In this document: positions 4,887 through 28,807 of the stretch, in pieces
Position numbering within the stretch: position 1 is the stretch's first letter
Layout of the letters: the number at the start of each line of letters is the position of its first letter
Origin: a virus
Length of the DNA stretch: 28,876 nt
IMG/VR virus record: IMGVR_UViG_3300032820_000079
Coordinates: 1-28,876 of that record
Reading direction: 5' to 3' (one strand)
Program-made: the position numbers and the translations under genes
Notes under the pieces: generated by a model
Told to the model about the DNA's origin: nothing
Database searches by the model: none
What the model saw: the letters and a program-made list of their open reading frames with translations, nothing else

Positions 4887-7800
4887 ATGGCAGAACTGAA
4901 CTTCGACAATTACGCAGAAGAAGAGTCCGGGGTAACGGACGCTCTGGCGGCAGGTCAGGGCACTTCAGACGCCTACCTCAACCGAATCGTCCAGCAGGAC
5001 GCCAAGCTCAAGGCGTTTGAGGCCGCAGAAGACGCTAGGGATATAGACAAAAAGGCAAAGCACTACGAGGGGAAAAGCACCCCCTTCATGGTGCAAGCTG
5101 TTGGCCGTGGTGTCGAGCAATGGGGCAGGTCGTACTCGTGGCTCGCCAAGCCGTTCCTCAACGAAGAGGAGATGATTGAGTTCCACAAAGAAGATGAGCG
5201 AATTGCCGCCGGGTTCAATCAGGCTATGGACATGGGTGGCCTCGGTGCGACCCACAAGTTCCTTGCCAACGGACTCAAAGATTCCACGGATATGGCGGGG
5301 AAGATGGTTGTCTCCGCATACACAGGTGGGATGCCCTCCCTTTATGTCCAGTACGGTGCGCAGGGCCTCAACCAGACATACCACCAAGCAAGGGTGGCCG
5401 GTCTCAGCAAGGAGGACTCGCTCAACCACGCCAGCCTGATGACCGCGATTGAGATTGGGACAATGGCCCTGTTCCATGCTGGCAGCAAGTTCTTCCCAAA
5501 GATCATGCCGGATATTGAATCTAGGATTGTTGCCGAACTTGGCGGCAGCTTGGGGGCTTCGAGCGGCAGGAGAATGGCGTCGAGAGCTACATCAAAAGTC
5601 GTCAACGACTCCCTTATGAAGAGCTTTGGGCGAGGGGCTGGCAAGATGCTCTGGGAAGGCGGCGTTGAAACGGCAGAGGAGGTCGGCACCGCCGTCGGTC
5701 AAGCTATGGCTCGCGCAGCCCAGATCCCCGGAGCAGAAGACGAGGCCAACTGGACGGACAAAAACGGCAGCGTGCTGAACTCCCCGATGATGCTGACCGC
5801 CCTCCACACGGCGAGGGACACCGCCGGTGCGATGGTCTTTATCAACGGTGCCCCCAAGATCAAGAATGGTATCCGTCGGTTCTTGAACGCCCCCTCCAGA
5901 GGCAACGCCCTCGCCGCCGCCAAATGGCTCGTAGCCATCGGTGCAGCAGATAGCGTCGAATCCCTCAAGAGCAGGGATGTTCGGGAGTCGGCCCAAAAAA
6001 TAGCCCTGAACAAGCTGAGAGACCCGAACTCCGACATAGACGTTTTGGCGATTGCCGAAGAATACGGAGTCAATATCGGGAGCCAGTGGGACGCTGCGGA
6101 AGGCGAGTTGCCGGAGGTGTGGCGGGATCGTGGAGCTTACGAGGTGATTCCCGGTGTGGTTCTTGGAGGGCGTTACGGGGCGGAAACTGAGCAGGCTGAG
6201 CGGGCAATCGTTGACCTCCACAACGAACTCGGGAGCAAGTTTGGCTACAAGCTCAGGATCGTAGATTCGGAAGGCGGAAGAGAATCGCTTCAGGGCGTTG
6301 AGGGCGCGCACGTCTCTAGCGACAAGACCGTCTGGGTCACGCGGCAGCACCTTGAAACCCTCCTCCGCAGAGACAAGAGCCTGAAGAGCGTGGCCGCCGG
6401 TCTTTATGCCCACGAACTCACCCACGTTCTCGAAGAGGAGGACGGATATCAGGAACTCGAAGAGTTCGTATTGATGAACTTCAAGGAGGATTACCTCAAG
6501 GCTCGGGAAGGGTACAAGGGCGACTATGAAGCAGCGCGGAAAAAGCCCGGTAATGAAAGCTGGGGCGATCTGGACGAGCAGAGGCTCAACCGCGAGGCAC
6601 TTGCTAGGTGGATGGAGGACGGATTCCTGAAGAGCGGCGCGCTCTCCAAGATCGCCAAGAGCAACATGACCCTCTTCGAGCGCATCCGCGACTGGTGGTA
6701 CCGCCGGATGAACAAGTGGAAAGACAGCCGGAAGTACGGCGAAGTCTTCAAGATGATCCAGAAGATCGCCCGGAAAGAGGGACTGGACGACAAGCCGTTC
6801 CCGACCGGACTGATGAACGTGGAAGGTGCCATCGGGGTTCCTGCTGAAGAGCTTGCTGGGACTAGGACCGATATAGGGTGGACAGAAAGCTATCAGGCTC
6901 CTCCCGATAAAAGATCAGGGAAAACAGGCAAGACAGAAACCGAGGCTGACAGAGACCCCGAGGCGGAAGAGCTTGCCGAGGCCAAGTCTCTGTGGGAAAG
7001 GAGCGAGTTCGACCACCTGTACGACCCGGACGAAGAGGGGAACCGAAGGCTCCAGATAGAGGCAGAGCTTGAGAACGTAACCCTCGAACAAGACCTCGGG
7101 GACGCTGTGGCGAGTCCGGCGGTGAACCGCACCCCGCTCCAAGACGGCCCTCCGAGCGGAACCGAGCCAGCCATCCAGAGGGATATCGGGGGACGAATTG
7201 AGAACTCAGACGTTGTAAGGCTCCGGCGGATTGCTGAGCTGAATGAGGACTTGGAGAACGCCACGCCCAGCGAGAGAGAGGCTCTCTTGAGGGCGTTCGA
7301 CGAAGAGACGGACCAGCTCGCCATCTCAGAAAACAGGGATGCGGAAGAGCAGCAGGATAGACAGGAGCATCGAGAGGCTTGGAACGCGGCGAAGGACCAG
7401 ACGCAGATCGTCCAAGAGAGCCAAGCGGATCGCCTGCGGAGGTGGAAGCAGGAGCAGACAGAGCGACTAGGGGGCTTCGCTCCCGAGCCTTCCCTTGAAC
7501 TGGGACTCACGCAACAACTGGATGATGCGCTGAAACATATTGATCCCGAGGACAACACGCAGGCACCCCAAGCACTCCCAGACCCCTCCTCCCTCAAGAC
7601 TGCCCGCGAAGCCTCGGCAGCGAGAGACGACGCTTGGACAAGGAAGCAGGACGCAGAATTTCTAGGGATGGACAGTTCTGTGGAGACCGAGGAGTGGAAG
7701 GCACTCAGGGACCGCGCCGAATCCCTCAGTCGGCAGGAGAAGTTCAACACCTTCACCGACACGGCGCAGGTGCTGGGCCTGCGGTTGCAGTCCGAGCAGG

Positions 7801-10800
7801 TCGAAGAGGGGGTCGAGGTGGCTGGGGATCGCCGCGAGGTGTTCTTCGACCTCCCCACTATTGAAGACATCTTCTTCGGAAACGTCAGCGAGGATCAGGA
7901 GGTTCGACTGCGAGACTTCCTTGCAGCCGTGGAGGAGGCTAACCCCGGCGACTACACGATTACAGCCAACACGAGACTGATTGAGAGCAAGCTGGACTCT
8001 CTGGGACGCCCGGAGCCGACGACAGGCACACCGCTCCAAGCCGAGCAGATGGGCGAGCTGGGCGTAAACGTCCCGGTTGCGACCCAACCGTCAGTGTCTA
8101 ACGTCGCGGAAGTTGCCAGAGACCTAGAGGAGTGGGAAAAACAAAAAATTGATGCCACTATGTACTGGGAGTACCGCGATTGGCAGGAGGAAGAGCAGGA
8201 CCGGCTGGCTGCCGTGGGGGCCGAGTCCATAAGCCAAGTCGAAGGGTCCGACTACGACTTCAGCCAGATGACTCAGGAAGAGCTGGCGGACGTGGGCCGC
8301 TCAGTTGAGAGGGCCGAAGAGCAAGCGAGGGCCGTCGAGCCCGCCGTCGAGCCAGCCGCTGAGCCTGTTGCCGAGCCTGTTGCCGAGCCTGTTGCCACCG
8401 GAACGACCAGAAACATCAGCATCCGATACGAAACCCCTCGGCAGATTGGCGACTATATACTCGCGCCATTCATCGAGTCGCTCCGGGGCCTCAAGGCAGG
8501 CGAGCGGGCCGACGTTCTCCCTGATGGGTGGACACTCTCCGAGGGGGCCTTCGCAGGGGGAAAGAACAAGTTTCATCCGTCCGAAGAGGTTATGGAGCAG
8601 CTCAAGGCTGCGTTTCCTAACGCGGTCTTTGCCGACGACTTCGTCATCAGGTACGGCTCCAACAGTCAGGCAGCCCGGCACCCTGTTGGCCACCCGGAAG
8701 CAGGGGCCGTAATGGAACTCCAGATCAGCAAGCACCACAAAGGCATCAAGCTCCGGGCCAGCATCGCCCACGAGATGCACCACATGGCAGGCAATTGGGG
8801 GTTGGACCTCAAAAATCCGAAAGACCCGGTGGAGGCTGTCGGATACCTCACCAACGAGGGAGAAATAGCAGCCCACGCCGTCGAGGCTGCCATGTTGTTC
8901 GAGGACGCACACCCCGGAGAGGACTTTGACGCGGCTAAGCTGGCGGAAGCATTCCCTGAAAAAGAGTCATTCAAAAACTACGCGAATTTTGCGGACCAGA
9001 CCGCAGCTGAACGTATCGCAGGCAAAACCGAAGGCAACTTTAGTGCTGAGCATATCCGGGCTGCCGGAGAGTCTTTCGCAGCTCAGGCACAGGCAGCCTT
9101 GGGTCGCACAGCCACTCCAGCAATCCCGTCCGTTAAGAGCGAGAAAAGGCCAAAGAAGAAAAAGAAGACCGTAGTCGAAGAGGCGCAGGAAGAATCGAAG
9201 GTAACGGCTGACGCAGCTATCGTCGCTCAAACCGACGTTGGAAAAGAGGCGGCGGACGAGCTTCTCGCGGAAGACTCGGCGACCCTGCAAGCGACTGTCC
9301 CAGAAGACAGCACCACCGTTCTTGAGGTCACGGCAGAGCCGGAAGACATCGGCTTGGACCCAGAGTTTCTCAAGAAGGTCATCGAAAAGAGCGCACCCAC
9401 GGAGTTCTTGGACGAAGCGGAATCTGAAATCGCAGGTCTGGCGGATCAGGCCGAGAGCGAACTCGACCCGAAGCTGAAGGCTGGCCTTGAAGCAGAGGGC
9501 AAGGCTCTGTCCAAGCTCGCTGACGAATTCAACACCATCTCCCAGATTGAAGACCCTCAAGAGAGGCGGGAGAAGATCAAGTCGGCCAAGAAGAAGATCG
9601 TCAAGAAAATCGAAGAGAGTAGAAAAGCGTTCAAGGAAGCGAACCCCGGCGGAGGGGGAAGGAACGTGTCTGCGGAAAGACTTCAGGCGTTTGTTTCTGC
9701 ATACGCGGAGATTGAGCTTTCCGACACGGTAGCCAGCCGCCGGACAATGGAAGCCGGAACTCTCAGGGGCGGGTCGAGGTCGAGGGAAGAGTTCGCCGAG
9801 GGCGAAAGCCAATACACCATGAGCGTTGACGAGTGGGAGCAGCGTCGGAATCAGGACAGGCAGCTCGCCTTGCAGCTTGATGAGGCTGACCAGCTCTACG
9901 CATCTCAGCCCGACAAGATAAAGGAGGCAACAGAGCGAGCCGCGAGCCACTTTGCAAGGCTCAGCCCGCAGCTTTTAGAAGCTCAGGCCATAAAGCTGGG
10001 CGACTTTCTCGGCCTCCCCGTGGGTACCGACCCGCAATCCGTGGCCGAGGCCACGACGAGAGCCTTGATGCTCCCCACGTTCCAGCGTGACCCGGACGGA
10101 AACGTCATGTATGGAGAAGACGGGAAGCCTCTCGTGAAGGTTCCAGACGACGTGATGGACCTGCTCAGGTATGTGAACTACGAGCGAGACGTTACCAAAA
10201 AGACTTTCAAAGTCCTGACGATTGCATACGAGGCGGTTGCCGAAACGCCGAAACGCACAACTGACGCCCGAAAGATCACTCAGGTTCCCGGCAGCAGGCT
10301 CAGGCCATCAGCCAGATTTCAGGGCGAGATGGGCAATAAGGGAATCCTCGACATAGCCCTGCCCACAAAAGAAGACGGGTCGGTGGACGACAGCGAAATA
10401 AAGAAGCTGGCAAAGGAACGAGGAGTCCTGTACCAAGCCCCGCCATCGAAGCCACCGACAAAGAAGTCGGTCAAGACTCAGGCAGCAACAAACAACAGGG
10501 TTATAGAGGAGAGAGTCCTGAAGTCGGATGCTTGGTCTCCTGACCTGAGCGACATGGAGCTTGATGCACTGATTGCTGCGGAGCCGGACTTCATCGACAT
10601 CAGCGACGATGCTTCCATCGAGTCGGCACGGAAGCAGATCCACAAGACGAACGTAGAAACAACAAGAAACGGCAACTGGAACAGGATCAGGCTTCACGAC
10701 GAGCAGGAGGGCAAGCTGCCCCAGTTGGATCGCCCCTTGGAAGTTGGGGAGAGCGTCACCTTTTCTGGGAAGGCCGCAAAGACCGTCCGAGCTGAGGAAG

Positions 10801-13800
10801 AGGGCAAGGGAGTTCTGATCATAAACAGGGTCATCAAAGGGGAAGCCGAGTCGTTCGATGACTGGAAATACGACATCGAGTGGACCGAGATAGACGGGCA
10901 GAAGGTCGAGCCGAGGAAGGCACACATAAGAACCGTTGTAGCTTACGCTGACAGGACACGGAAGCCTGTAAAGGCCGCCTCGGACAAAGAGCTTCAGAAC
11001 ATATTCAAGGATGTACTTAGAAGCTGGCAGGCGGGCAGCGAGAAGTTCCGCCCGGTTGTTCCAGAGAGCATGACGGACGAAGCGTTCAACCGCGTTGAGG
11101 CCGCTGGCCTGACGAAGCAAGAGCAGATTATCAACACGGTTGTAAACCCGGAGTTCAGGGAGCTTGGCTGGATTGGAGCAGGGCGGAGCAAGCTCACCCG
11201 GATGAAGGGTGAAGCGAGGAAGGACGGCCTGAGCGACAAGGAAATCGAGGTATTCCTCGGAAGGATTCTCAAGCACGAGATCGAATACAAGGCGGGCAGA
11301 GGGTACGGGACGGTAAAAAAGATCATCGGCAACCTTGAAGGGCTCGGCACGAAGGCTGTCGTTGAAAAGGCCGTCGAAGCACCTCTGGCGAGGTTCATGT
11401 CGAAGGTTGAGCCGTCCCAGCCGGGCGAGAGAGACCTCTCCCGTGCAGAGAGAATCAGTCAGACAGTCGAGGCGGACAGGGACATTGACCCGATCACTGG
11501 AATTCTTGAGGAGGAGCTGGCCGCCCTCCAAGCCGCGCTTCAAGAGGCAGAACAGGGGACACTCCCTGAGCTGGACATCTTGGCAGAGATCAAAGACAAG
11601 GAGGCTGAGATCGACCAAGCCAAGGAAGATGAGAAGACCGGGGGGTCTGAGTCTCACGTCCAGTTCGCACTCCGGGGAACCGGGAACGAACAGACGGACC
11701 TTCTCATTGAGATCGCAAGGTTTGCACGGTCGGTTAATGAGCAGTTCGGTTTTCCAAAGATGGATATGCCGTGGTTGACCAGCCCTGCAAGATTACTAGA
11801 AGAAAAAGAAGGAATGGTGGGGGACATCTCGACTGTCCTGAAAGACCTCTCAAGAGTCTACGGCGACGAAGCGGGAGGAAATTGGGACAACGAAGCTCTG
11901 GAGCTTTGGGAACGGATTGAAGCCGGAGACGAGAGCGCGTTCAACGAGCTTGACGGGATTCTTGAGATTATCCTTGGGTCTGAAGGCGCAGCGACGGTAG
12001 AGGCGCGAATGAGGGCGGAGGAACTCAGGGACGCGATGTTCACGGACATAACCAAGAAGACCCCCCAAGAGGTTATGGAAGAGCAAGAGGCCGCTGCCGC
12101 CGAGGCTGCTGACGAGGCTGCTGCCAGTGAAGAGGAGTTCTACGATCCCGAAGAAGACGAGGGGAAAATCTCCCTCGACGACATCGCCGGACAGTGGCTC
12201 GGGGAACAGCTTGTCCTCCAGACGGACGACCTCAACGCACAGCTCCAGAGGCTCGAACGGAACGTCGCTTCCCTCAGCCAGCAAATTGAACACGCTGACG
12301 AGGCGGGGTTTGAGTCGAGCAAGCCGGGCATTATCGAGAAGCTCAAGCAGACCATAACCTACCGCAACGCGGTCTCTCGGCAGCTTGCGCTGAAGCTCAA
12401 CGACCTCTACAAGCTGCGGCGGGAAGTCTCGAACCGGGTCCAGTTTGCCGTCGAGAGGAGACGCCCGGATTCCCCGGATACTCTCGTGGACAAGGCCATC
12501 CAGTTCGACGTGGAAAGAAGAAAAGAGACGGGCCACTGGGAAGGCATGACCCCAGAAATGCAGGAGCTTTTCGACGGAATTGTCGAGAAGCACTACGACC
12601 TGAAGCACCCGAGCAACTGGGTGCAGGTCGAAGGGGATGCCGAGGCACACTGGGCCAGCCTCAAGGCCAAGCACGGCGAAGAAGGTGCCCGTGAAATCAT
12701 CCTTGAGGAGCTGAAGGCCAACGCAAAAGAGGGCGTCCCCGCGTCGGAAAGAAACTCGGTGCTTGGGAACCGCCTCGTTCAGGAACTCTACAGCGAAGCC
12801 TTTGCAAACCCAGACAGCAAGGGCCTGATTGATCTGGCCTCGCGCGCAACAGAGGCACTCCTCTCCTACGGTACGGAGTTGGGGCGGTCCTTCTACTTCC
12901 TGAGAAGGATGAACCCTCTCGAAAAGGCGAAGAAGGCTCTTGGCGAGGCGTTCTTTACGCCCCCCGAGAGGATTATGCAGAAGGTCCGAAAGCTCAAGAA
13001 GCAGAACAACAACGCAGGCGCGCAAAAGATCCTCGACGAATGGACCGACACCGGCCTCCCGAAGCTGCGAAAGCAGCTCACCGACCTCGGCTGGGACTTG
13101 AGTGATCTCAACGCGATTGCCTCCGACCCCATCCTGTCGTCGCAGCTCCTCGACGTTATCAGCCAGCACACGGCTCACTGGACAGACAAGCTGTTCGAGT
13201 ATTGGAGAAACTCGATCCTCAGTGCCCCGACTACGCAGATGGCGAACATAACGGGGACAGCCTTCTTCGCGCTCTACGAGCTTGGCATCAAGAGGAACAT
13301 GCAGGCTGCCGGGAACCTCTTTATAAACAGCCCGCACCTACCCACCTTCGAGGAGAATTTTGTCGTATTCAAGCAGATGATGAAGTCGATGCGGACTACC
13401 GCTTGGGCGAACTTGCAGCAGTCTTGGAAGACAGAGCAGATGGTCCTTGAGACCCAGTTGAACGCGGCTGGGCTTGGCGTCAGCACGGAGATCGAGGGTC
13501 GGTTTGGCTCAGCAGGCAAGCAGTTCATCAAGGGCAAGACCGGCGGGTTCATCCGCGTTCCGCAGCGAGGACTCCTTGCGGCGGACGAGTACATGAAGAC
13601 CACACTCACCGAAATGTACGCAGCGGGGTATGCGTTCCGTGCCGCCCGCCAGCAAGAGGCGGAAGGCAATATGACGAGGGAAGAGTCGGCTAAGTTCATC
13701 GACTACTTGATGAACTCAGATAAAAAGGCCGAGAGAATCTGGATGCCAGCCTACCAGCAGGCACTCCGTCAGGCTTGGCAGACAGATTTGCCCAAGGTCG

Positions 13801-15332
13801 GCCAGTGGGCGGTGCAGTTCAGGAACGCATACCCAGCCACCAGATTTGTCATCCCGTTTATTGTGACTCCCATAAACATCCTGACAACCGGCGTGGGGAT
13901 GAGTCCCTTCTCGGCAATATCATCCCTGTATCGCTGGTCCCAGCTCAGGGACGAGGGGATTGACCCCCAGCAGAGGATCGAGTCTGTCGAAAAAATCTAC
14001 GACGGGTTCACCAACACGCTCCTCTCGGGCATGTGGGCGATGGTGCTGATGGCTATGACCGACGACGACGAGCCCATGATTACCGGGACAGAGATCGACG
14101 TTATGCGGGGCAGGCAGCGGTACCCGTCAGGAAGGCCGGGAGAGCTGCCGACCATGTCTGTCCGCCTCCCGTTCTCGGACAAGTGGTTCAGCTACGCCCG
14201 CATCGAGCCGTTCGCCACGGCAACAGCACTCACTATCGACCTGATCAAAACAGCCCGGCACGGCAAGGCGGGGCACGGCGAGAAGGTCGCACAAGATATC
14301 GGCAGAGGTATCTACGGACAAATTCAAGAGAAGACATTTATGCGTGGCATCGCGGAGATTCTGGAAGCCAGCAAAGAGACCTTTGCGGGCAGGCCTGTGC
14401 AGGGGTTGGGGGAATACTTTTCAAATACCGCCGTGTCTTTTGTTCCCAACGTGATCCGGTCAACGGCACGCGCAACCCAAGTGTCCGCGCCGGAACGAAA
14501 AGTTTCAAGAGAACCGGGCAAGCAGATGATGAGCCTTCTCGATGTCACCCTGAAGAAGACTGAGATTCTGCCAGCCTTGGGTCTCGTCAAGGACTTCCCG
14601 AAGGTGGACTTCTACGGCAGGGAAATGCCAAGGCACAAGAGCTTTGGTGTAGGTGGGCAGGCCGGGGACTTCTTGTACCGTCTGGTGGTCCCGGCCACCG
14701 TGAAGTCTACACACAAGTTTGTCGGCGATGAGGTTATGCAGCGGTACAACAACCGCATCGACAACATGGAGGACGCCTACATCGGACCCGAGCAGCCTGA
14801 CCGATACTTCAAAATAGGCGGAAAGAAGAAGTGGATGAGCAACGAGCAGTACAACGAATACTGCCTGATGTCCGGTAATCTCTCCAGAGAATTCACGCGA
14901 ACCCTCAATCTTGATGTAGACAACCCCACTGGCTTGGACATCAAGAAGCTGAAAGAGGCACACAGCAGGGCTCGCGGTGCTGCCAGAGAATACTGCATCG
15001 AAAAGTTCTGGGGTGACGGGGAAAGGCTGGCGTTCATGGAGGAGGCTACAGCCGATGGACTCAAGGAGGCCTCCATCAAGGCAAAGGCAAAGATTTTGAC
15101 CCGAAGAAAACCCACCATGAAATCTCTCAGCGAGGAAGAAAAGAGGCTTCCCTACCGGATGCGCCGTGCTATCCTTGAAAATAGAATAAGTGAGCTAGAA
15201 GAGGAGCAGAGAGCCGCCGCGCAGGAGCTTGCCTCCGAGGATGTTGGAGGACGAGAGGCGGCAGCCGCATTCGGTGGCGGCGTCGGGGCACGCAAGAGAA
15301 TTCGTCAGGCAATAAGAACATACGGGGGTTGA
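4887..15332 (+). CDS. Giant polyvalent ejection-type protein with two zincin motifs
   Basis: The product is 3481 residues from one uninterrupted frame. Residues 1-400 are amphipathic and helical. A first zinc-metallopeptidase motif, HELTH, lies at about 509-513, and a second, HEMHH, at about 1295-1299 with a possible Glu ligand downstream in NEGEIAAHA. Acidic, coiled-coil and linker regions fill the middle, including a short EPVA repeat near 1150-1170 and a poly-Lys stretch near 1420. Residues about 2765-3270 resemble the conserved C-terminal region of giant podovirus proteins (LPD38-like): FEYWRNSILSAPTTQMANI, then LLAADEYMKT, then VIPFIVTPINIL, then YARIEPFATA. By analogy it would be ejected with the DNA, cut cell-wall or host proteins and help DNA entry. 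No transglycosylase motif and no RNA polymerase motif was seen. The peptidase activities are inferred from the motifs alone. Confidence 0.85.
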   Translation: MAELNFDNYAEEESGVTDALAAGQGTSDAYLNRIVQQDAKLKAFEAAEDARDIDKKAKHYEGKSTPFMVQAVGRGVEQWGRSYSWLAKPFLNEEEMIEFHKEDERIAAGFNQAMDMGGLGATHKFLANGLKDSTDMAGKMVVSAYTGGMPSLYVQYGAQGLNQTYHQARVAGLSKEDSLNHASLMTAIEIGTMALFHAGSKFFPKIMPDIESRIVAELGGSLGASSGRRMASRATSKVVNDSLMKSFGRGAGKMLWEGGVETAEEVGTAVGQAMARAAQIPGAEDEANWTDKNGSVLNSPMMLTALHTARDTAGAMVFINGAPKIKNGIRRFLNAPSRGNALAAAKWLVAIGAADSVESLKSRDVRESAQKIALNKLRDPNSDIDVLAIAEEYGVNIGSQWDAAEGELPEVWRDRGAYEVIPGVVLGGRYGAETEQAERAIVDLHNELGSKFGYKLRIVDSEGGRESLQGVEGAHVSSDKTVWVTRQHLETLLRRDKSLKSVAAGLYAHELTHVLEEEDGYQELEEFVLMNFKEDYLKAREGYKGDYEAARKKPGNESWGDLDEQRLNREALARWMEDGFLKSGALSKIAKSNMTLFERIRDWWYRRMNKWKDSRKYGEVFKMIQKIARKEGLDDKPFPTGLMNVEGAIGVPAEELAGTRTDIGWTESYQAPPDKRSGKTGKTETEADRDPEAEELAEAKSLWERSEFDHLYDPDEEGNRRLQIEAELENVTLEQDLGDAVASPAVNRTPLQDGPPSGTEPAIQRDIGGRIENSDVVRLRRIAELNEDLENATPSEREALLRAFDEETDQLAISENRDAEEQQDRQEHREAWNAAKDQTQIVQESQADRLRRWKQEQTERLGGFAPEPSLELGLTQQLDDALKHIDPEDNTQAPQALPDPSSLKTAREASAARDDAWTRKQDAEFLGMDSSVETEEWKALRDRAESLSRQEKFNTFTDTAQVLGLRLQSEQVEEGVEVAGDRREVFFDLPTIEDIFFGNVSEDQEVRLRDFLAAVEEANPGDYTITANTRLIESKLDSLGRPEPTTGTPLQAEQMGELGVNVPVATQPSVSNVAEVARDLEEWEKQKIDATMYWEYRDWQEEEQDRLAAVGAESISQVEGSDYDFSQMTQEELADVGRSVERAEEQARAVEPAVEPAAEPVAEPVAEPVATGTTRNISIRYETPRQIGDYILAPFIESLRGLKAGERADVLPDGWTLSEGAFAGGKNKFHPSEEVMEQLKAAFPNAVFADDFVIRYGSNSQAARHPVGHPEAGAVMELQISKHHKGIKLRASIAHEMHHMAGNWGLDLKNPKDPVEAVGYLTNEGEIAAHAVEAAMLFEDAHPGEDFDAAKLAEAFPEKESFKNYANFADQTAAERIAGKTEGNFSAEHIRAAGESFAAQAQAALGRTATPAIPSVKSEKRPKKKKKTVVEEAQEESKVTADAAIVAQTDVGKEAADELLAEDSATLQATVPEDSTTVLEVTAEPEDIGLDPEFLKKVIEKSAPTEFLDEAESEIAGLADQAESELDPKLKAGLEAEGKALSKLADEFNTISQIEDPQERREKIKSAKKKIVKKIEESRKAFKEANPGGGGRNVSAERLQAFVSAYAEIELSDTVASRRTMEAGTLRGGSRSREEFAEGESQYTMSVDEWEQRRNQDRQLALQLDEADQLYASQPDKIKEATERAASHFARLSPQLLEAQAIKLGDFLGLPVGTDPQSVAEATTRALMLPTFQRDPDGNVMYGEDGKPLVKVPDDVMDLLRYVNYERDVTKKTFKVLTIAYEAVAETPKRTTDARKITQVPGSRLRPSARFQGEMGNKGILDIALPTKEDGSVDDSEIKKLAKERGVLYQAPPSKPPTKKSVKTQAATNNRVIEERVLKSDAWSPDLSDMELDALIAAEPDFIDISDDASIESARKQIHKTNVETTRNGNWNRIRLHDEQEGKLPQLDRPLEVGESVTFSGKAAKTVRAEEEGKGVLIINRVIKGEAESFDDWKYDIEWTEIDGQKVEPRKAHIRTVVAYADRTRKPVKAASDKELQNIFKDVLRSWQAGSEKFRPVVPESMTDEAFNRVEAAGLTKQEQIINTVVNPEFRELGWIGAGRSKLTRMKGEARKDGLSDKEIEVFLGRILKHEIEYKAGRGYGTVKKIIGNLEGLGTKAVVEKAVEAPLARFMSKVEPSQPGERDLSRAERISQTVEADRDIDPITGILEEELAALQAALQEAEQGTLPELDILAEIKDKEAEIDQAKEDEKTGGSESHVQFALRGTGNEQTDLLIEIARFARSVNEQFGFPKMDMPWLTSPARLLEEKEGMVGDISTVLKDLSRVYGDEAGGNWDNEALELWERIEAGDESAFNELDGILEIILGSEGAATVEARMRAEELRDAMFTDITKKTPQEVMEEQEAAAAEAADEAAASEEEFYDPEEDEGKISLDDIAGQWLGEQLVLQTDDLNAQLQRLERNVASLSQQIEHADEAGFESSKPGIIEKLKQTITYRNAVSRQLALKLNDLYKLRREVSNRVQFAVERRRPDSPDTLVDKAIQFDVERRKETGHWEGMTPEMQELFDGIVEKHYDLKHPSNWVQVEGDAEAHWASLKAKHGEEGAREIILEELKANAKEGVPASERNSVLGNRLVQELYSEAFANPDSKGLIDLASRATEALLSYGTELGRSFYFLRRMNPLEKAKKALGEAFFTPPERIMQKVRKLKKQNNNAGAQKILDEWTDTGLPKLRKQLTDLGWDLSDLNAIASDPILSSQLLDVISQHTAHWTDKLFEYWRNSILSAPTTQMANITGTAFFALYELGIKRNMQAAGNLFINSPHLPTFEENFVVFKQMMKSMRTTAWANLQQSWKTEQMVLETQLNAAGLGVSTEIEGRFGSAGKQFIKGKTGGFIRVPQRGLLAADEYMKTTLTEMYAAGYAFRAARQQEAEGNMTREESAKFIDYLMNSDKKAERIWMPAYQQALRQAWQTDLPKVGQWAVQFRNAYPATRFVIPFIVTPINILTTGVGMSPFSAISSLYRWSQLRDEGIDPQQRIESVEKIYDGFTNTLLSGMWAMVLMAMTDDDEPMITGTEIDVMRGRQRYPSGRPGELPTMSVRLPFSDKWFSYARIEPFATATALTIDLIKTARHGKAGHGEKVAQDIGRGIYGQIQEKTFMRGIAEILEASKETFAGRPVQGLGEYFSNTAVSFVPNVIRSTARATQVSAPERKVSREPGKQMMSLLDVTLKKTEILPALGLVKDFPKVDFYGREMPRHKSFGVGGQAGDFLYRLVVPATVKSTHKFVGDEVMQRYNNRIDNMEDAYIGPEQPDRYFKIGGKKKWMSNEQYNEYCLMSGNLSREFTRTLNLDVDNPTGLDIKKLKEAHSRARGAAREYCIEKFWGDGERLAFMEEATADGLKEASIKAKAKILTRRKPTMKSLSEEEKRLPYRMRRAILENRISELEEEQRAAAQELASEDVGGREAAAAFGGGVGARKRIRQAIRTYGG

Positions 15333-15333
15333 G

Positions 15334-15726
15334 ATGAAACGTGGCAGCGAAGATTTCCACAAGGAACTCAAAGAGCTTGGGTTGCTGCACGACAAGAAGC
15401 AGAGGGACTACGGCACTTCAAGCGACCCGTTCGCTAACGTGCGGGCCGCAGAAGACTTTGGCGTCCCCGCTTGGCAGGGGTGCCTGATCCGTATGAACGA
15501 CAAGATGACCCGCCTCAAGAACTTCTCCACCAAGGGGGAGCTTGCAAACGAGGGGGTTGAAGATTCCCTGCGAGACCTCGCGGTCTACTCACTCATCGCT
15601 CTCTGCCTGTTCAAGGAGCGGGACGACGAAGGCGGAGTCGGTGCTGAGGGAGGGATCGTCAAGGGTTTTACTAGGGAGACAAATGATGGCAGAGCAAGCG
15701 ATAAACAATCTCGTAGTCGTATCTGA
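15334..15726 (+). CDS. DUF1599/Nmad1-like small protein
   Basis: This 130-residue protein starts one base after the giant gene's stop. The core (about residues 19-98) carries KKQRDYG, then DPFANVRAAEDFGVPAW, then RMNDKMTRLKNF, then EDSLRDLAVYSLIALCL. This resembles the small helical phage proteins grouped as nucleotide-modification-associated domain 1 (DUF1599), which have a MazG-like look. Such proteins are often linked to nucleotide metabolism, but the reaction is unknown. The last 30 residues are low in conserved character and overlap the next gene by 44 bases. The family assignment is from memory of the motif and is tentative; that it is a real gene is well supported. Confidence 0.7.
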   Translation: MKRGSEDFHKELKELGLLHDKKQRDYGTSSDPFANVRAAEDFGVPAWQGCLIRMNDKMTRLKNFSTKGELANEGVEDSLRDLAVYSLIALCLFKERDDEGGVGAEGGIVKGFTRETNDGRASDKQSRSRI

Positions 15727-16552
15727 CACCCACTGTGGCTGTCGTCTCGGCCTGTGCCCTCCCGGTGGAGTGTTCATGGACGAGGGCGGTATGTACAAGC
15801 CGAGCAAGCTCCAGAAAAAAGTCTGGAAGATGTGGAGGGAGTTCTGGGATGAGTTTGTTCCCCTCGCGACCCGTGGAGAACCCTACGCTGTCGTCTTCAA
15901 CGGAGACATCGTCGATGGAGTCCACCACGGAAGCACCACACAGATCAGCCACAACCTCGAAGATCAGGCATCTATTGCTTACGAGTGCATGGCACCAGTT
16001 GTGGAGGCTTGTGAAGGACGTTACTACCACATACGCGGGACAGAGGCCCACGTCGGGCAGTCAGCCAGAGACGAAGAGAGTCTCGCCAAGCGTCTCGGTG
16101 CCATTCCCAACGAAGAAGGTCAGCACGCACGATGGGACTTGTGGAAAATGTGCGGACCAAAGCTCGTGCATTTCTTACACCACGTCGGCACCACATCTTC
16201 GGCTGCTTACGAAGCGACGGCGGTCTTCAAGGAACTGATCGAGGAGTACGTCGAGTCGGCCAAGTGGGGACGCCGCCCGCCCGACGCCATCATCAGGTCG
16301 CACCGACACCGATACATCATGTGTGAAATTCCTACCGGCAGCGACGCCGCCACAGGGAAGGGGCGAACATCCACAGGCCACGCAATTGCAGCGGTAACTG
16401 GCTGCTGGCAAGGCAAGACGCCGTTTGTGTGGAAGATCGCTGGAGCAAGGCTCACAACGCCGCAGTTTGGCGGTCTGGTTGTGAGGTTCAAGGAAGATGA
16501 ACTCTTCATAAGGAAAAGGATATGGACGGTGGAGCGTTCGAGGGTGGAATGA
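15683..16552 (+). CDS. Calcineurin-like metallophosphoesterase
   Basis: The 289-residue product has the ordered metal-binding motifs of the calcineurin-like phosphoesterase superfamily. These are D-x-H at residues 15-17 (VVVSDTHCG), GD at 74-75 (FNGDIVDG), RGTEAH at 118-123 in the position of the usual GNH[DE], and a late His motif, SHRHRY. The replacement of the usual Asn by Thr in the third motif is notable, though the downstream His remains. The frame is open further upstream, but ATG 15683 has GGGAG six to ten bases before it, and the added N-terminal residues would only be a shadow of the previous gene. Substrate is unknown; related phage enzymes are thought to act on nucleic acid ends or phosphoproteins. 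It shares an ATGA overlap with the next gene. Confidence 0.8.
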   Translation: MMAEQAINNLVVVSDTHCGCRLGLCPPGGVFMDEGGMYKPSKLQKKVWKMWREFWDEFVPLATRGEPYAVVFNGDIVDGVHHGSTTQISHNLEDQASIAYECMAPVVEACEGRYYHIRGTEAHVGQSARDEESLAKRLGAIPNEEGQHARWDLWKMCGPKLVHFLHHVGTTSSAAYEATAVFKELIEEYVESAKWGRRPPDAIIRSHRHRYIMCEIPTGSDAATGKGRTSTGHAIAAVTGCWQGKTPFVWKIAGARLTTPQFGGLVVRFKEDELFIRKRIWTVERSRVE

Positions 16553-16821
16553 GCTTCAAGAAAATGTTAGGTCCGGGCGATTCTGTGTGGGATGAGATCG
16601 GCAAGTTCAAGCTGAAGAAGTGCCCATTCTGCGGGGAGTACCCGGACTGGACATTTACTGACGGTGACGAGGATGGTCTGCAATGGATGATCCATTGCCA
16701 AGAGAGGACTTGTCACGTCAAGCCTTGGACATCTTGGTCAGACCAGCCGGAATTTGCTTCTCTGAAGTGGAACAGGAGGTTTGCAGGAGGGAAGCCAAGC
16801 GGCGGAAAGTGGATGAAATGA
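16549..16821 (+). CDS. Lar-like zinc-ribbon protein
   Basis: The 90-residue protein carries CPFCGEYPDW near its middle, a later HCQERTCHV pair and a closing LKWNRRF. This is the layout of the Lar (restriction alleviation) family: CPFCG, a second Cys pair and a final WNxR. Lar of the Rac prophage modulates type I restriction; whether this protein does so is inference. The chosen ATG overlaps the upstream stop as ATGA and has GAGG five bases upstream. An in-frame ATG at 16522 (with AAGGA upstream) would add nine residues and cannot be excluded. It overlaps the following micropeptide by four bases. Confidence 0.7.
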   Translation: MSFKKMLGPGDSVWDEIGKFKLKKCPFCGEYPDWTFTDGDEDGLQWMIHCQERTCHVKPWTSWSDQPEFASLKWNRRFAGGKPSGGKWMK

Positions 16822-16913
16822 GTGACACGCTTGTTGTACTTCTGGCTGCCGAAGCGTTGATCTGGGTCATCCTCCTGATGGTGGTGGCAGAAAAAAACCG
16901 GAAAAATCATTGA
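16818..16913 (+). CDS. 31-residue single-pass membrane peptide
   Basis: A short frame starts with an ATGA overlap on the preceding stop. The peptide has a short polar start (MSDT), one hydrophobic helix over about residues 5-24 (LVVLLAAEALIWVILLMVVA) and a basic end (EKNRKNH), an N-out/C-in type layout. It is the last frame before a promoter and a long untranslated leader, so it closes the upstream operon. No homologue was recognised; a role in the host membrane is plausible. The coupling to the upstream gene and the clean hydrophobic pattern are the evidence for it being real. Confidence 0.6.
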   Translation: MSDTLVVLLAAEALIWVILLMVVAEKNRKNH

Positions 16914-16937
16914 CATCGGGTTAGCCACCCCTAAGAT
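16910..16937 (+). promoter_or_regulatory. Sigma70-like promoter for the structured leader
   Basis: A perfect -35 hexamer TTGACA (16910-16915) overlaps the stop of the membrane peptide. After a 16-base spacer comes TAAGAT (16932-16937), four of six matches to the -10 consensus. Transcription would begin near 16944 and produce about 295 bases of leader before the ATG at 17239. Confidence 0.55.
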
Positions 16938-17238: not shown

Positions 17239-17478
17239 ATGGCAAAGAAAAAGATACACGTCAACCAGCATGTTATTCGTCGCAACGCCAAACATGGCAC
17301 CGAAGATCCTCCAATTACGGTAAAACACCGAAGAAACAACCATTATGGAACGCGCGTCGAGGTGCTTGGACCCTCGGTTCTGGTCTATAGCGCACACAAG
17401 CCCTTGCTGTCCTGCGGTGCCCGGCTGATACTAGAGTGTAGTTGCCCGGTTCTTGTTGACGGCAAGGAGATCGAGTGA
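17239..17478 (+). CDS. Small conserved phage protein of unknown function
   Basis: The 79-residue basic protein begins MAKKKIHVNQHVIRRNAK and contains a central PPITVKHRRNNHYGTRVEVLG segment and a KPLLSCGARLILEC end. I recall similar small proteins (IHVNQH start, GPSxVxY, KPLSCGARVW end) in many unrelated phages, where their role is unknown. The fold looks all-beta with two or three Cys near the end. It is the first gene behind the structured leader; AGGGAG lies 13 bases before the ATG, rather far, so translation may depend on how the leader folds. Its stop overlaps the next start as TGATG. Confidence 0.75.
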   Translation: MAKKKIHVNQHVIRRNAKHGTEDPPITVKHRRNNHYGTRVEVLGPSVLVYSAHKPLLSCGARLILECSCPVLVDGKEIE

Positions 17479-17705
17479 TGGACGAACTTGAAAATGAATT
17501 CGACGATGAGTTCAAAACAATACTGAGCGATTGCCCTGACTGCGGTGATATCCCAGACATCAAGGAATACTACCGCGAAATAGAAGGGGTGATGTTTAGT
17601 GGGGTTGTGTGTGAAAAATGCAACTTGGCAGCCTTGCATTTCAGCACGCAGTCCGGCATACATTTGTGGAACGAGATGGTTCAGGAGTGGAGCGGAAATG
17701 AGTAG
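17478..17705 (+). CDS. Second Lar-like zinc-ribbon protein
   Basis: The 75-residue acidic protein has CPDCGDIPD near residue 20, VCEKC about 25 residues later and LWNEMV near the end. That spacing and the final WN match the Lar-type zinc ribbon, as in the gene at 16549. The two differ strongly in the residues between the motifs, so they are not recent duplicates. Start: ATG 17478 shares its last base pattern with the upstream stop (TGATG); an overlapping GTG at 17475 adds one residue. It overlaps the next gene by eight bases. A restriction-countering role is possible but unproven. Confidence 0.7.
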   Translation: MDELENEFDDEFKTILSDCPDCGDIPDIKEYYREIEGVMFSGVVCEKCNLAALHFSTQSGIHLWNEMVQEWSGNE

Positions 17706-23939: not shown

Positions 23940-24108
23940 CGCCGGGTTGCACCGCTCTAGGCTTGCTGCAATAAGGTTGTCTGCCCGTGAGGGCGGCATC
24001 GCTACCGTTGTATCCAACAGGGTGGAGGAGCTTCGTGAAGACCTTGCTCGACAAGCTGATGGAACGCTGGGCAGGCGTTCGGATGCTGGAAGAGGAAGCA
24101 AAGGCTGA
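23899..24108 (+). CDS. Small overlapping protein of unknown function
   Basis: A 69-residue frame starts at GTG 23899 with GGAGGAG four to five bases upstream. It is helical and charged (GKAEALSQAESNAGLHRSR, then RVEELREDLARQADG). It fills what would otherwise be a 95-base gap between the genes at 23706 and 24035, and overlaps both (41 and 74 bases). The strong ribosome site and composition favour a real gene, but a misread shadow cannot be excluded. No family was recognised. Confidence 0.45.
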   Translation: MQGKAEALSQAESNAGLHRSRLAAIRLSAREGGIATVVSNRVEELREDLARQADGTLGRRSDAGRGSKG

Positions 24109-24469
24109 AGATGTGGCCGAGATGCTTCGCATCAACCGCGAGGAAGTTCGGGCGCATCTACGCAACAACCTCGGCAGCAACTTTAGCCCGGAGAGCGTGG
24201 AGAGCGGGAGTACACACATCGGGGATGTCGTGCATCACCACACCGAGACCAATACAGAGACGGGTAGCGGCGGCAGAAAGTGGCTCGGCAAAGGCCTGAT
24301 CGCCGCCGCTCTTCTTGGCAGCGGAGCCGGTGCGCCATTCCTGCTCAACCTGCTTGGTGGAGAGATACCTGCTGTCGTGAACCCTCCCGGCGAGGGATCG
24401 AAGTACGACCTGAAACTGGGAGAACCTGATGCAGTACCAGAAAGCAAGAAAGAAGATCAGGGACGGTGA
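24035..24469 (+). CDS. Single-pass membrane protein, holin-like or virion-associated
   Basis: The 144-residue product starts at GTG 24035, six bases after GGAGGAG. A helical N-terminal part (about residues 1-45) is followed by a Ser/Thr/Gly-rich stretch with HHH near 67-69, a basic patch RKWLGKG and one membrane helix at about 87-108 (GLIAAALLGSGAGAPFLLNLL), then a polar tail. The topology could suit a holin or spanin partner because the next gene is a YiiX-type cysteine peptidase-like protein, but no holin family was recognised. It overlaps that gene by 41 bases. Confidence 0.6.
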   Translation: MKTLLDKLMERWAGVRMLEEEAKAEDVAEMLRINREEVRAHLRNNLGSNFSPESVESGSTHIGDVVHHHTETNTETGSGGRKWLGKGLIAAALLGSGAGAPFLLNLLGGEIPAVVNPPGEGSKYDLKLGEPDAVPESKKEDQGR

Positions 24470-25674: not shown

Positions 25675-25711
25675 CGAAAAAAGCCCCGGTAAGCTATTGC
25701 TACCGGGGCTT
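25675..25711. terminator. Bidirectional terminator between convergent gene blocks
   Basis: AAGCCCCGGTA (25681-25691) and TACCGGGGCTT (25701-25711) form a perfect 11-bp stem around a 9-base loop. An A-run at 25677-25682 gives a T-run for minus-strand transcripts; the plus side ends in TTCTTCG, weaker. It serves the plus-strand gene ending at 25667 and the minus-strand gene ending at 25718. Confidence 0.85.
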
Positions 25712-25717
25712 CTTCGC

Positions 25718-26128
25718 TTAGCGAGCTTTGGGGAATGGGACATGGTGGACAACGTGCGGCTTTCTGGCTTTTGTCACCTTGTACGGACGGGATGTTACGA
25801 TCCCGTTCGGCACTAGTGTCGGCCCGGTGATGCGACAGGCGTGAAACGCCCACCTCATACCGCTCCGTGTGATCTCCTGAACATGGAGTACCACGCCGGG
25901 AACCTGCACCTTGTCATCGGGCGGATCTTCGATCTGCTCGATTACGGCATTCCCCCTGAACGCCATTGACGTTGTCGTCCCGTCTTGTTTTTCAAAGTAC
26001 GGGCCTTCCCTCAGCCGAATGCTGTCCCCAACGCGGAGGATAAGACTCGGGCTGTACTTGAACTCTTTGAGTAGATTCCGGTTGTCACCCCACCCGTGCG
26101 GGTTGTCCGGTGTTGGCTTGACGGCCAT
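25718..26128 (-). CDS. Minus-strand protein of unknown function
   Basis: The 136-residue protein starts MAVKPTPDNPHGWG and is beta-rich in the middle (LILRVGDSIRLREG, then VVLHVQEIT). Its basic, His-containing C-terminus ends in VVHHVPFPKAR. ATG 26128 has GGGAG seven bases upstream; a TTG two codons earlier is less likely. It is a single-gene unit between promoter box copy 1 and the bidirectional terminator. No family was recognised. Confidence 0.65.
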   Translation of the reverse strand: MAVKPTPDNPHGWGDNRNLLKEFKYSPSLILRVGDSIRLREGPYFEKQDGTTTSMAFRGNAVIEQIEDPPDDKVQVPGVVLHVQEITRSGMRWAFHACRITGPTLVPNGIVTSRPYKVTKARKPHVVHHVPFPKAR

Positions 26129-26180
26129 TGTCAATCTCCCTTGAGTAATGAGGGGAGGGAATCTCCCCCTCTACTAATAG

Positions 26181-26208
26181 TATCGGCATTACTGCATCAA
26201 AACTTGAG
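26181..26208 (-). promoter_or_regulatory. Minus-strand promoter box, copy 1
   Basis: Read on the minus strand the box is CTCAAGTTT, then TGATGCAGTAAT, then GCCGATA. It lies 52 bases before the ATG at 26128, directly after the terminator of the preceding unit. The halves match the sigma28 consensus TAAAGTTT / GCCGATAA with a 12- instead of 11-base gap. Confidence 0.65.
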
Positions 26209-26212
26209 TACC

Positions 26213-26254
26213 AATAAAAGAAGCCCCGGCCAACCTCTCGGCGACCGGGGCTTC
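26213..26254 (-). terminator. Terminator of the DUF932-like gene unit
   Basis: GAAGCCCCGG (26220-26229) pairs with CCGGGGCTTC (26245-26254); on the minus strand the stem is followed by TTTTATT. It lies just after the stop at 26261. The loop contains a further GCC/GGC pairing. Confidence 0.8.
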
Positions 26255-26260
26255 CTATCA

Positions 26261-27100
26261 TCAGATCGCGCACACCTTGTCGAGCAGTCGGTGAACACCC
26301 TGAGTTCTGTCGGAGAGAGTAGCCAACGAGCCTCGGCCTTTCAAGGACTGGGTGAAGGCGTTGTAGAGCCTCCAAACCGATCCGTGAGTGGGGTTTGACC
26401 CCGGAAAGCCAGAGACAGGGTTGTCGTACTGCTTATGCTCCTCGTGACTCGGATGCCGATACTCTCGGAGTACATCCTTTTCAGCAATATGAGGAATCGC
26501 ATCGTATTTGTCCCACGACTTCACGAGGATGTCGTGGACTTGCGGTTCCGTCAATTGGTGACGTTTGTACGCCTCGTGGCGATCCGCGATCTTCCTTCGA
26601 CTCGTTCCGAACATCTGAACCGCATCTTGAATGCAGCCATCGAGGTCTTCGATGATGTTCTTCGTATGTCTCCGGCTGACGGTAAACTCACCGTGGAAGG
26701 CGAGGTTATCGCAGACAAAGAGACCCGCACCCCAAGCAATAGCCGAAGGGAATCGCTTGTCGTGCGCGTTGCGGATACCCGCAACCAGTGAAGCCTCGCC
26801 TTCGAGGAGAGCCTCGCCGTCGTGACCAAGCACGGAATCGCGGTTGAGTTCCATCAGCCCGAAATACTGGTTGTGGCATTCGGGTTCGTGGTCCTCGATG
26901 CGTCCCCACTTGTTGACGGCATGAGCCTCTCCGACGAGGTTGTACCCCGACCGCTGGAATGCAGCGAGGCATTTGTCCCACAACATCGTGTGTGGGATGG
27001 GTCGATGTGTCTCCGTCCCTTTTGGCGTGGCTTCGCCAGCCAACTGGTCACGGGTGACATGGTTCGACCCGCAATGGGTCATCAGGTTGAGCTTACGCAT
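26261..27100 (-). CDS. DUF932-like phage/plasmid protein
   Basis: The 279-residue protein contains FVCDNLAFHGEFTVSRRHTK near its centre and HGSVWRLYNAFTQSLKG near its C-terminus. A central 'CxNgl' segment and a late 'GtxWxxxNAxT' helix is the layout of the DUF932 (TIGR03299-like) proteins common in phages and plasmids, whose function is unknown; some accompany anti-restriction or replication genes. ATG 27100 has AAGGGAG six bases upstream. It is a one-gene unit between promoter box copy 2 and its own terminator. Confidence 0.75.
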   Translation of the reverse strand: MRKLNLMTHCGSNHVTRDQLAGEATPKGTETHRPIPHTMLWDKCLAAFQRSGYNLVGEAHAVNKWGRIEDHEPECHNQYFGLMELNRDSVLGHDGEALLEGEASLVAGIRNAHDKRFPSAIAWGAGLFVCDNLAFHGEFTVSRRHTKNIIEDLDGCIQDAVQMFGTSRRKIADRHEAYKRHQLTEPQVHDILVKSWDKYDAIPHIAEKDVLREYRHPSHEEHKQYDNPVSGFPGSNPTHGSVWRLYNAFTQSLKGRGSLATLSDRTQGVHRLLDKVCAI

Positions 27101-27149
27101 GGTTTCTCCCTTTCGTTTGCTCCAAAGAAATTCCCATCACTACTGTAGT

Positions 27150-27177
27150 TATCGGAATTATTGCACGGAAACTTGAG
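27150..27177 (-). promoter_or_regulatory. Minus-strand promoter box, copy 2
   Basis: On the minus strand: CTCAAGTTT, then CCGTGCAATAAT, then TCCGATA. It lies 49 bases before the ATG at 27100. The next bases, ACTACAGTAG, partly match the same position after copies 1 and 3, so the conserved region extends past the core. Confidence 0.65.
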
Positions 27178-27217
27178 CAGTCAAGGAAAAAACATCGGCA
27201 TTTTGTTGCTATCACAT

Positions 27218-27262
27218 AAAAAAAGGGCGAGAAAAGCAGGGTATTCCCCACTCTTCCCGCCC
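27218..27262 (-). terminator. Terminator of the 127-residue gene unit
   Basis: GGGCGAGAAAAG (27225-27236) pairs with CTCTTCCCGCCC (27251-27262), 12 bp with two G-T pairs. A run of seven A at 27218-27224 gives TTTTTTT on the minus strand. It follows the stop at 27272. Confidence 0.85.
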
Positions 27263-27271
27263 CTTTCGCCA

Positions 27272-27655
27272 CTAGAAGTCGATTTCCCGCTCGTAGAAGT
27301 CCTCGTCGTCCGCACCAAACAACTGCTGCTCCTCGATGTAACCCAGTACGGGGCCGAGGGTGGTTGGTGGTGGTGGTCCGTCGTGGCTTCCCGGCTGCGG
27401 AACGTGCAACTTGGTGGCCTGACTACTCGGTGTCCTTACGAGGCGAATAATCGCCCCGACATCTGCATCGAGTAGCGGTTTGACACAACCGTCGAAGAAC
27501 TCGTCGGACGAAGCCTTGATGACCTTGACAGCGTTGTCGTCGTCAAGATAACCGGCTTTCGCCAGACCCGTCAGGATCGCTCTCGCGTAGTCCCGCATGA
27601 GCTTCTCGATGTTGTTTCCCCTCTTGGGGGCCTTCTTCTTCCTCTGTTTAGCCAT
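27272..27655 (-). CDS. Minus-strand protein of unknown function
   Basis: The 127-residue protein has a strongly basic start (MAKQRKKKAPKRGNN), a helical core (IEKLMRDYARAILTGLAKAG), a Pro-rich stretch (GPPPPTTLGP) and an acidic end (FGADDEDFYEREIDF). ATG 27655 has AAAGGAG five bases upstream, an ideal ribosome site. It is a one-gene unit between promoter box copy 3 and its own terminator. The basic and acidic ends suggest nucleic-acid or protein interaction; no family was recognised. Confidence 0.7.
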   Translation of the reverse strand: MAKQRKKKAPKRGNNIEKLMRDYARAILTGLAKAGYLDDDNAVKVIKASSDEFFDGCVKPLLDADVGAIIRLVRTPSSQATKLHVPQPGSHDGPPPPTTLGPVLGYIEEQQLFGADDEDFYEREIDF

Positions 27656-27703
27656 GTCGCTCCTTTCAGCGTTAGACCAAGAGAACTAGAAGTCTACAGG
27701 TAG

Positions 27704-27731
27704 TTTCGGCATTACTGCACCGGAACTTTAG
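27704..27731 (-). promoter_or_regulatory. Minus-strand promoter box, copy 3
   Basis: On the minus strand: CTAAAGTTC, then CGGTGCAGTAAT, then GCCGAAA. It lies 48 bases before the ATG at 27655 and only six bases after the terminator of the upstream unit. Confidence 0.65.
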
Positions 27732-27737
27732 CACTAA

Positions 27738-27777
27738 ACAAAAAAGGGGGCCGAAGACTGTGAAGTCTCCGACCCCC
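27738..27777 (-). terminator. Terminator of the three-gene minus-strand unit
   Basis: GGGGGCCGAAGACT (27746-27759) pairs with AGTCTCCGACCCCC (27764-27777) in a 14-bp stem with a 4-base loop. The A-run at 27740-27745 gives TTTTTT on the minus strand. It lies 32 bases after the stop at 27810. Confidence 0.9.
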
Positions 27778-27809
27778 TCGGCGGGATGGACCTATCATGA
27801 TCTTGCGTG

Positions 27810-27911
27810 CTACCACTTCCGGCTCTCGGCCCAGCGTGCCACGAGGTAAACCGTGAAGCACAGGGCAGCGAGGCCAAAGTAGATCAGCATGTTGGCAAGA
27901 TGCGGGTTCAT
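27810..27911 (-). CDS. 33-residue single-pass membrane peptide
   Basis: The frame starts at ATG 27909-27911 on the minus strand, overlapping the upstream stop (ATGA), with GGGGGGAG six bases before it. The peptide has one hydrophobic helix (residues about 7-24, NMLIYFGLAALCFTVYLV) and a basic-polar end (ARWAESRKW). Strong ribosome site, coupling and a terminator right after it make it a likely real gene. Its role is unknown; like the 31-residue peptide at 16818 it would sit in the host inner membrane. Confidence 0.65.
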   Translation of the reverse strand: MNPHLANMLIYFGLAALCFTVYLVARWAESRKW

Positions 27912-28249
27912 GTTATCTCCCCCCTTACTTGATCCTGAAGGAGCCGAAGGTGGTCCTCAGCTTGCCCAAGCAGGATGTCAGGACGCTTTATAGCGTCGGT
28001 TACGTCGAAGCCGTCCTTGGCGTAATCATCATCCAGAATGACTATCTTTTCCACCACGGGGGGTTTTTTCCCTATGCGTGGCTTCATAATCATTGCGAAC
28101 ATTTGGTGTGGCTCCATAGTAGCTTCGACCGAGCAGTCTGGCTCGTCAGGCACAGGGAGAACTCCCTGCACGTCAGAGGGGGCCATACAAGGCCCGACAA
28201 TGAAGCCCGGCCCCCCCTGATTCGCCCTAGTGCTGGCTCTGGGCAGCAC
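27908..28249 (-). CDS. Minus-strand protein of unknown function
   Basis: The 113-residue protein starts at GTG 28249, which has GGAG seven bases upstream and lies 13 bases after the preceding stop. A longer reading from ATG 28294 would overlap that gene and lacks a ribosome site. The sequence has a Pro/Gly-rich first half and a second half with RIGKKPPVVEKIVILDDDY followed by a helix (LGQAEDHLRLLQDQVRGE). No family was recognised. It is the middle gene of the three-gene unit under promoter box copy 4. Confidence 0.55.
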   Translation of the reverse strand: MLPRASTRANQGGPGFIVGPCMAPSDVQGVLPVPDEPDCSVEATMEPHQMFAMIMKPRIGKKPPVVEKIVILDDDYAKDGFDVTDAIKRPDILLGQAEDHLRLLQDQVRGEIT

Positions 28250-28262
28250 TAGCTTGCTCCGC

Positions 28263-28706
28263 TTACGCCGGGTGCTGATCGCTCGGTGGATCATGCTTGC
28301 CCGGCTCGTAAGCCTCAGTGTTGGGAAAATCCGTTTCCCCGCCGTTGTCGCTGACCGGCGTACCCTCAGTCGAAAAGATGAGGTCGCCAGCCTTCACCGC
28401 CGCCCTTACTGCCTTGTAGGTCAGCAGGTTTTCGGCGTCGGAGAACGAGGCGTTAGCCCACTTCTCCGGGTCAGAGGTCGTCAACTCCACGCTGCAAGGC
28501 GTGTCGATCACTTCCGCAATCCTCGCGGTGTAGTGGGTCGCGTCTTCGAAGGGAATGTCATTCCACATCAACTCACGCATTCCACCGTACCAACCACAGG
28601 CATCCACGGGCTGACCGACAATCGCTACGACCGCCTTGTCAGTCCTCGTGGTGGCCCCTGTGTCGTTCTCCGCGTTGAAGACGACCTTCAGTGTCGCAGT
28701 AAGCAT
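28263..28706 (-). CDS. Minus-strand protein of unknown function
   Basis: The 147-residue acidic protein begins with a beta-rich segment (TATLKVVFNAENDTG, then KAVVAIVGQPVDACGWYGG), has a helical middle (ENLLTYKAVRAAVKAGDLI) and a disordered Pro/Asp-rich tail. AAAGGAG lies nine bases before the ATG at 28706. It is the first gene of the unit driven by promoter box copy 4. No family was recognised. Confidence 0.65.
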   Translation of the reverse strand: MLTATLKVVFNAENDTGATTRTDKAVVAIVGQPVDACGWYGGMRELMWNDIPFEDATHYTARIAEVIDTPCSVELTTSDPEKWANASFSDAENLLTYKAVRAAVKAGDLIFSTEGTPVSDNGGETDFPNTEAYEPGKHDPPSDQHPA

Positions 28707-28779
28707 CTGGCTTACTCCTTTGGGGATACTGCCCCATCAGGCAAGGGTGGTGTCCGCCCCTGCTCGGCGATAACACTCT

Positions 28780-28807
28780 CTTCGGCGTTCCTGCACCCAT
28801 AGTTTAG
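28780..28807 (-). promoter_or_regulatory. Minus-strand promoter box, copy 4 (most divergent)
   Basis: On the minus strand: CTAAACTAT, then GGGTGCAGGAAC, then GCCGAAG. It keeps TGCA and CCGA at the same spacing as copies 1-3 but differs in the left half. It lies 73 bases before the ATG at 28706. No gene was seen from here to the window end. Confidence 0.5.

Follow-up and report, generated by a model that had tools for sequence, protein, structure and literature searches.

Bacterial sigma28 promoters (FliA in Escherichia coli, SigD in Bacillus, WhiG in Streptomyces) and the phage boxes described here have in common CTAAAGTT, GCCGATA, a gap of 11-12 bases and a short leader; the phage boxes add a conserved spacer element, TG(C/T)A..AA, and a conserved start region. 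The promoter class is already known. On the usual view, a phage relies on the primary sigma factor of the host until a factor of its own is made or brought. Lytic phages have early regions in which small genes of no known function are likewise clustered with repeated promoters, opposite to the remaining genome; the known ones use primary-sigma or phage-polymerase promoters, whereas the putative promoters of this phage group are of sigma28 type. A search of the open-access literature for phages using sigma28 found nothing direct, and by that literature both this use of sigma28-type promoters and the spacer element seem to be undescribed.

Among cultured phages, Salinibacter phage M8CRM-1 (Kryptosalinivirus) has a series of small genes at 40660-47433, between which motifs recur, and a remote DUF932-like homologue (26% identity), but its own motifs are unrelated to the box; they are ACCGGAAACCCG-like and CCCCCTACAG repeats, immediately upstream of the start codons. 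Naming the host through cultured phages was given up, the matches being remote (Salinibacter 26%, Tunturiibacter 35%, and broad terminase matches); no box was found in the 48-50 kb read of the Salinibacter and Tunturiibacter phages.

The window analysed here is the whole of IMG/VR record IMGVR_UViG_3300032820_000079 (28,876 bases), probably a piece of a larger phage genome. Four boxes lie on its minus strand, exactly where the original prediction had placed them: box 1 at 26167-26208 (core 26181-26208 plus a conserved downstream part), with a likely transcription start near 26172; box 2 at 27136-27177 (core 27150-27177); box 3 at 27690-27731 (core 27704-27731); and box 4, the most degenerate copy, at 28766-28807 (core 28780-28807). 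A matrix built from the four scores them at 34-42 bits and the next site in the window at 11 bits; they are the only copies in the window, and all belong to one module. The TGCA and CCGA said to be invariant are so in all four. Boxes 1-3, each of sigma28 type, end 52, 49 and 48 bases before the start codon, matching the 48-52 bases predicted for three of them, and box 4 ends 73 bases before it. The predicted length of 28 bases holds for the core only: about 12 further conserved bases (aCAnnaGTAGcG) follow, giving 40.

Boxes 1-4 head cassettes 1-4, all on the minus strand. Cassette 1 holds a gene for about 136 aa (25718-26128) without family match. The gene of cassette 2 (26261-27100, 279 aa) is weakly DUF932-like and is present in every close relative holding the module, and that of cassette 3 (27272-27655, 127 aa) has homologues in related contigs G001 and G002 and no family match. 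Cassette 4 has a first gene for 147 aa (28263-28706), again without family match, a second reading frame (27908-28294, 128 aa as listed, with a true start that may be inside, near 28101) and a 33-aa frame (27810-27911) whose hydrophobic stretch makes a membrane peptide possible. Most proteins of the module have no known family. The strong terminators predicted between the units are there, as hairpins followed by T that separate all of them: the cassette 1 terminator (25677-25710) is a hairpin with a T run, that of cassette 2 (26217-26255, -30.1 kcal/mol) lies 10 bases before box 1, that of cassette 3 (27221-27266) precedes box 2, and that of cassette 4 (27744-27779) lies 12 bases before box 3. 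After box 4 comes a leader (28708-28773) with two short hairpins conserved across four phages, where two base-pair changes are compensatory. These hairpins matched no Rfam family, and an Rfam scan of the window gave no match; the segment is possibly a regulatory or stabilising leader RNA.

The original prediction also called for further copies in relatives, and 21 distinct ones turned up in six more contigs of this phage group, against zero boxes in three shuffles of all the sequence. The window and five related contigs together carry 24 distinct boxes, and L041 adds one. A degenerate box pattern matched only four contigs among 2.9 million viral contigs, of which two are relatives with six and eight boxes and two are isolated, poorer matches. 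Searching with the DUF932-like protein led to those relatives and to further contigs at 43-49% identity, all with at least one box; no box was found in the distant DUF932-like relatives L042-L046, and a scan with the downstream part of the motif included yielded no new copies. In every contig the boxes are on one strand and in one region, confined for example to 27.4-30.8 kb of the 46-kb contig G003.

Common genes tie the window and the related contigs into one phage group. The gene order in the group runs from virion genes, including one for a giant protein, through replication genes (exonuclease, Sak4, replication initiation, resolvase) to the box module, which faces opposite to the remaining genome, and then to the terminase side. 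In the window the giant protein has 3481 aa (4887-15332, plus strand); its C-terminal part matches phrog_6651, a family of internal virion proteins, and near residue 508 there is an HExxH-like motif, AHELTH.

Alignment of the boxes gave a 40-base motif with sharp ends, CTMAAGTT-YNNgTGYARYAAT-GCCGATA-aCAnnaGTAGcG, in which CTMAAGTT is followed by four looser bases, TG(C/T)A, two loose bases, AAT, GCCGATA, aCA, two loose bases and aGTAGcG. The AA of the first half, the GA of the second half and the A at position 37 are invariant in 25/25 aligned copies. CTMAAGTT agrees with the sigma28 -35 element (TAAAGTTT or close), with T and AA invariant in 24 boxes and G in 83%; GCCGATA agrees with the composite -10 element (GCCGATAA), with GA invariant and an A next in about 63%; and the phage gap of 12 bases falls within the expected 11-12 or so. 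Compared at four orthologous places, the 42-base boxes of the window and of G001 share 71-81% identity, against 26-48% for the 42 bases downstream and 40-67% upstream; the orthologue of the degenerate box 4 is at G001 15264-15305. Most boxes are 44-52 bases upstream of a likely ATG with a ribosome site, the automatic start-codon calls being wrong at a few sites, box 4 included. Of the 24 boxes, 16 have a strong T-tailed hairpin (-20 kcal/mol or better) within the preceding 80 bases, and weaker ones precede four more. The boxes form a real and conserved family of putative sigma28-type promoters for a small-gene module of related, uncultured phages.

The resemblance of the halves to a sigma28 promoter, part of the original prediction, is well supported by comparison with cellular sites of that type. 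A strict box pattern matched only twice in 84,980 species genomes, in a MAG (L009) and in Candidatus Rifleibacterium (L010), both times as a single site directly upstream of a cellular gene, for which reason the exact box was discarded as a route to the host. The L009 genome contains nine AAAG-N-GCCGATA sites, of which six share the phage spacing and the other three that of E. coli; those inspected lie directly upstream of genes. Across 292 genomes of the L009 phylum, CTMAAGTT-N13-GCCGATA occurs at 69 sites, and its reversed control at 1; a similar pattern in 40 genomes of the L010 phylum gave 15 sites, and the control 1. By these counts, nothing in either half, in the leading C, in the T ahead of GCC or in the 12-base gap departs from what is usual for sigma28-type promoters. 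The gap, originally singled out as an oddity, is thus ordinary.

The spacer is another matter. TG is present at its place in 21/24 phage boxes but in 3/63 distinct cellular promoters (Fisher p ~5e-14, a value that ignores relatedness and comes from an A+T-rich cellular set). The conserved TGCA noted in the gap is accordingly present and phage-specific, though in the wider set it takes the form TG(C/T)A; as a general feature of cellular sigma28 promoters it was rejected for the phylum surveyed. Its conservation in phages and not in cells suggests that something beyond ordinary sigma28 recognition is at work. In a separate count, TGCA was under-represented genome-wide, yet kept in the boxes: 76, 108 and 141 occurrences in the window, G001 and G003, against about 104, 140 and 173 expected.

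TGCARTAAT resembles the extended -10 of a primary sigma factor, so that the sigma28 elements could overlap a second promoter (TGnARTAAT) for the host's primary sigma. Such a double promoter is possible but not favoured, and we give it a small probability, as we do its consequence that the cassettes would be expressed with or without active sigma28. TGC followed by ARTAAT does look like TGnTATAAT, and most of the boxes ahead of the DUF932-like gene, taken together with the lone ones in G005 and L041, have a TTGAC at a fitting upstream distance; most other boxes, however, lack an upstream TTGAC, the first place of the -10 hexamer is A rather than T, and the critical A at its second place is G in 42% of boxes. 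An equally likely explanation is a spacer-binding regulator or a preference particular to the host. The spacer element, being specific to the phage group, would also suit a strongly diverged phage-encoded sigma factor, sigma28-like in specificity and dependent on TGCA as well, by which host RNA polymerase would be redirected. The contigs may be incomplete and most module proteins have no known family, both of which leave room for such a factor, but we think it unlikely: no Sigma70_r2 was found in six contigs, including one of 46 kb, by a search whose control was positive in 11/14 genomes, and the r4 matches are below cut-off, span 25-29 residues and come from a small protein that contains a hydrophobic stretch. 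A phage sigma candidate at 24038-24469 was dropped, its r4 match being sub-threshold and the protein unlike a sigma factor.

Phages with a single-subunit RNA polymerase typically have many near-identical promoters, all on one strand; a polymerase of this kind could arrive with the virion or come from a gene beyond the window, and the giant 3481-aa protein is of virion type. It was rejected as a polymerase, since it matches an internal virion protein family and has no DFDGD-type motif. In the contigs, which include a 46-kb one, neither an RNA polymerase family nor a DFDGD-type motif was recognised; a Pfam search for T7-like polymerase also gave no match, and carries little weight as its control gave no signal either. 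The boxes, moreover, have a bipartite 40-base footprint with loose spacer positions instead of a short contiguous block, and match both sigma28 elements at sigma28 spacing, as fits a sigma holoenzyme; we regard reading by a single-subunit polymerase as highly improbable. Least likely is that the cassettes are morons, independent promoter-gene-terminator units inserted singly into the phage genome. Most units do have their own promoter-like box and terminator, but they are clustered, use one class of box throughout and are orthologous, boxes included, in the same order in several phages, which is not the pattern of isolated insertions. Of the readings first proposed, the sigma28-like one is well supported by the comparison with cells, and a phage polymerase or sigma factor gained no support, none being recognised in contigs that may be incomplete. 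This result and the footprint, which ends at the invariant A and has the size of a sigma-holoenzyme promoter, together favour host RNA polymerase with a flagellar-type sigma factor.

It is probable, in our view, that the boxes act as promoters recognised by the host's sigma28 holoenzyme and drive a module of early type. An alternative host sigma factor driving such a module would be unusual for a phage, which speaks against this reading. Under host sigma28, each box would be a sigma28 (FliA/SigD) class promoter starting transcription of one small cassette. CTMAAGTT (-35) and GCCGATA (composite -10) would be read by a polymerase with a flagellar-type sigma, most likely the host's, and transcription would start at or adjoining the invariant A, 9 bases past GCCGATA. 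TG(C/T)A..AA may be a second, phage-specific determinant, either the binding site of a regulator or a preference of the host's sigma28 holoenzyme. The terminators would insulate the cassettes from one another. The module itself is oriented opposite to the other genes, in the manner of an early region. More tentatively, a whole takeover-type module may be under the host's flagellar sigma, with part of the infection proceeding exclusively, or most efficiently, in flagellum-building cells and TG(C/T)A serving as the handle of a sigma28-holoenzyme regulator. If sigma28 is indeed the reader, phage gene expression would be coupled to host motility, flagellated hosts would be implied, perhaps with phages attaching to flagella, and the boxes would be a naturally occurring set of sigma28 promoters that a spacer element tunes. 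In addition, the motif offers a handle for finding the host.

Three further features of the window lie outside the box module. TTGACA-N16-TAAGAT at 16910-16937 (plus strand), upstream of the replication module, is kept in G001 at 3566 and is possibly the primary-sigma promoter of that module; its presence in both suggests that the phage may use primary-sigma promoters elsewhere. Two small proteins (16522-16821 and 17475-17705, plus strand) match the restriction alleviation protein Lar weakly. A metallophosphoesterase-like protein (15683-16552, plus strand) differs little between phages (95-98% identity) whose remaining proteins mostly share 45-88%, pointing to recent exchange or to strong constraint.
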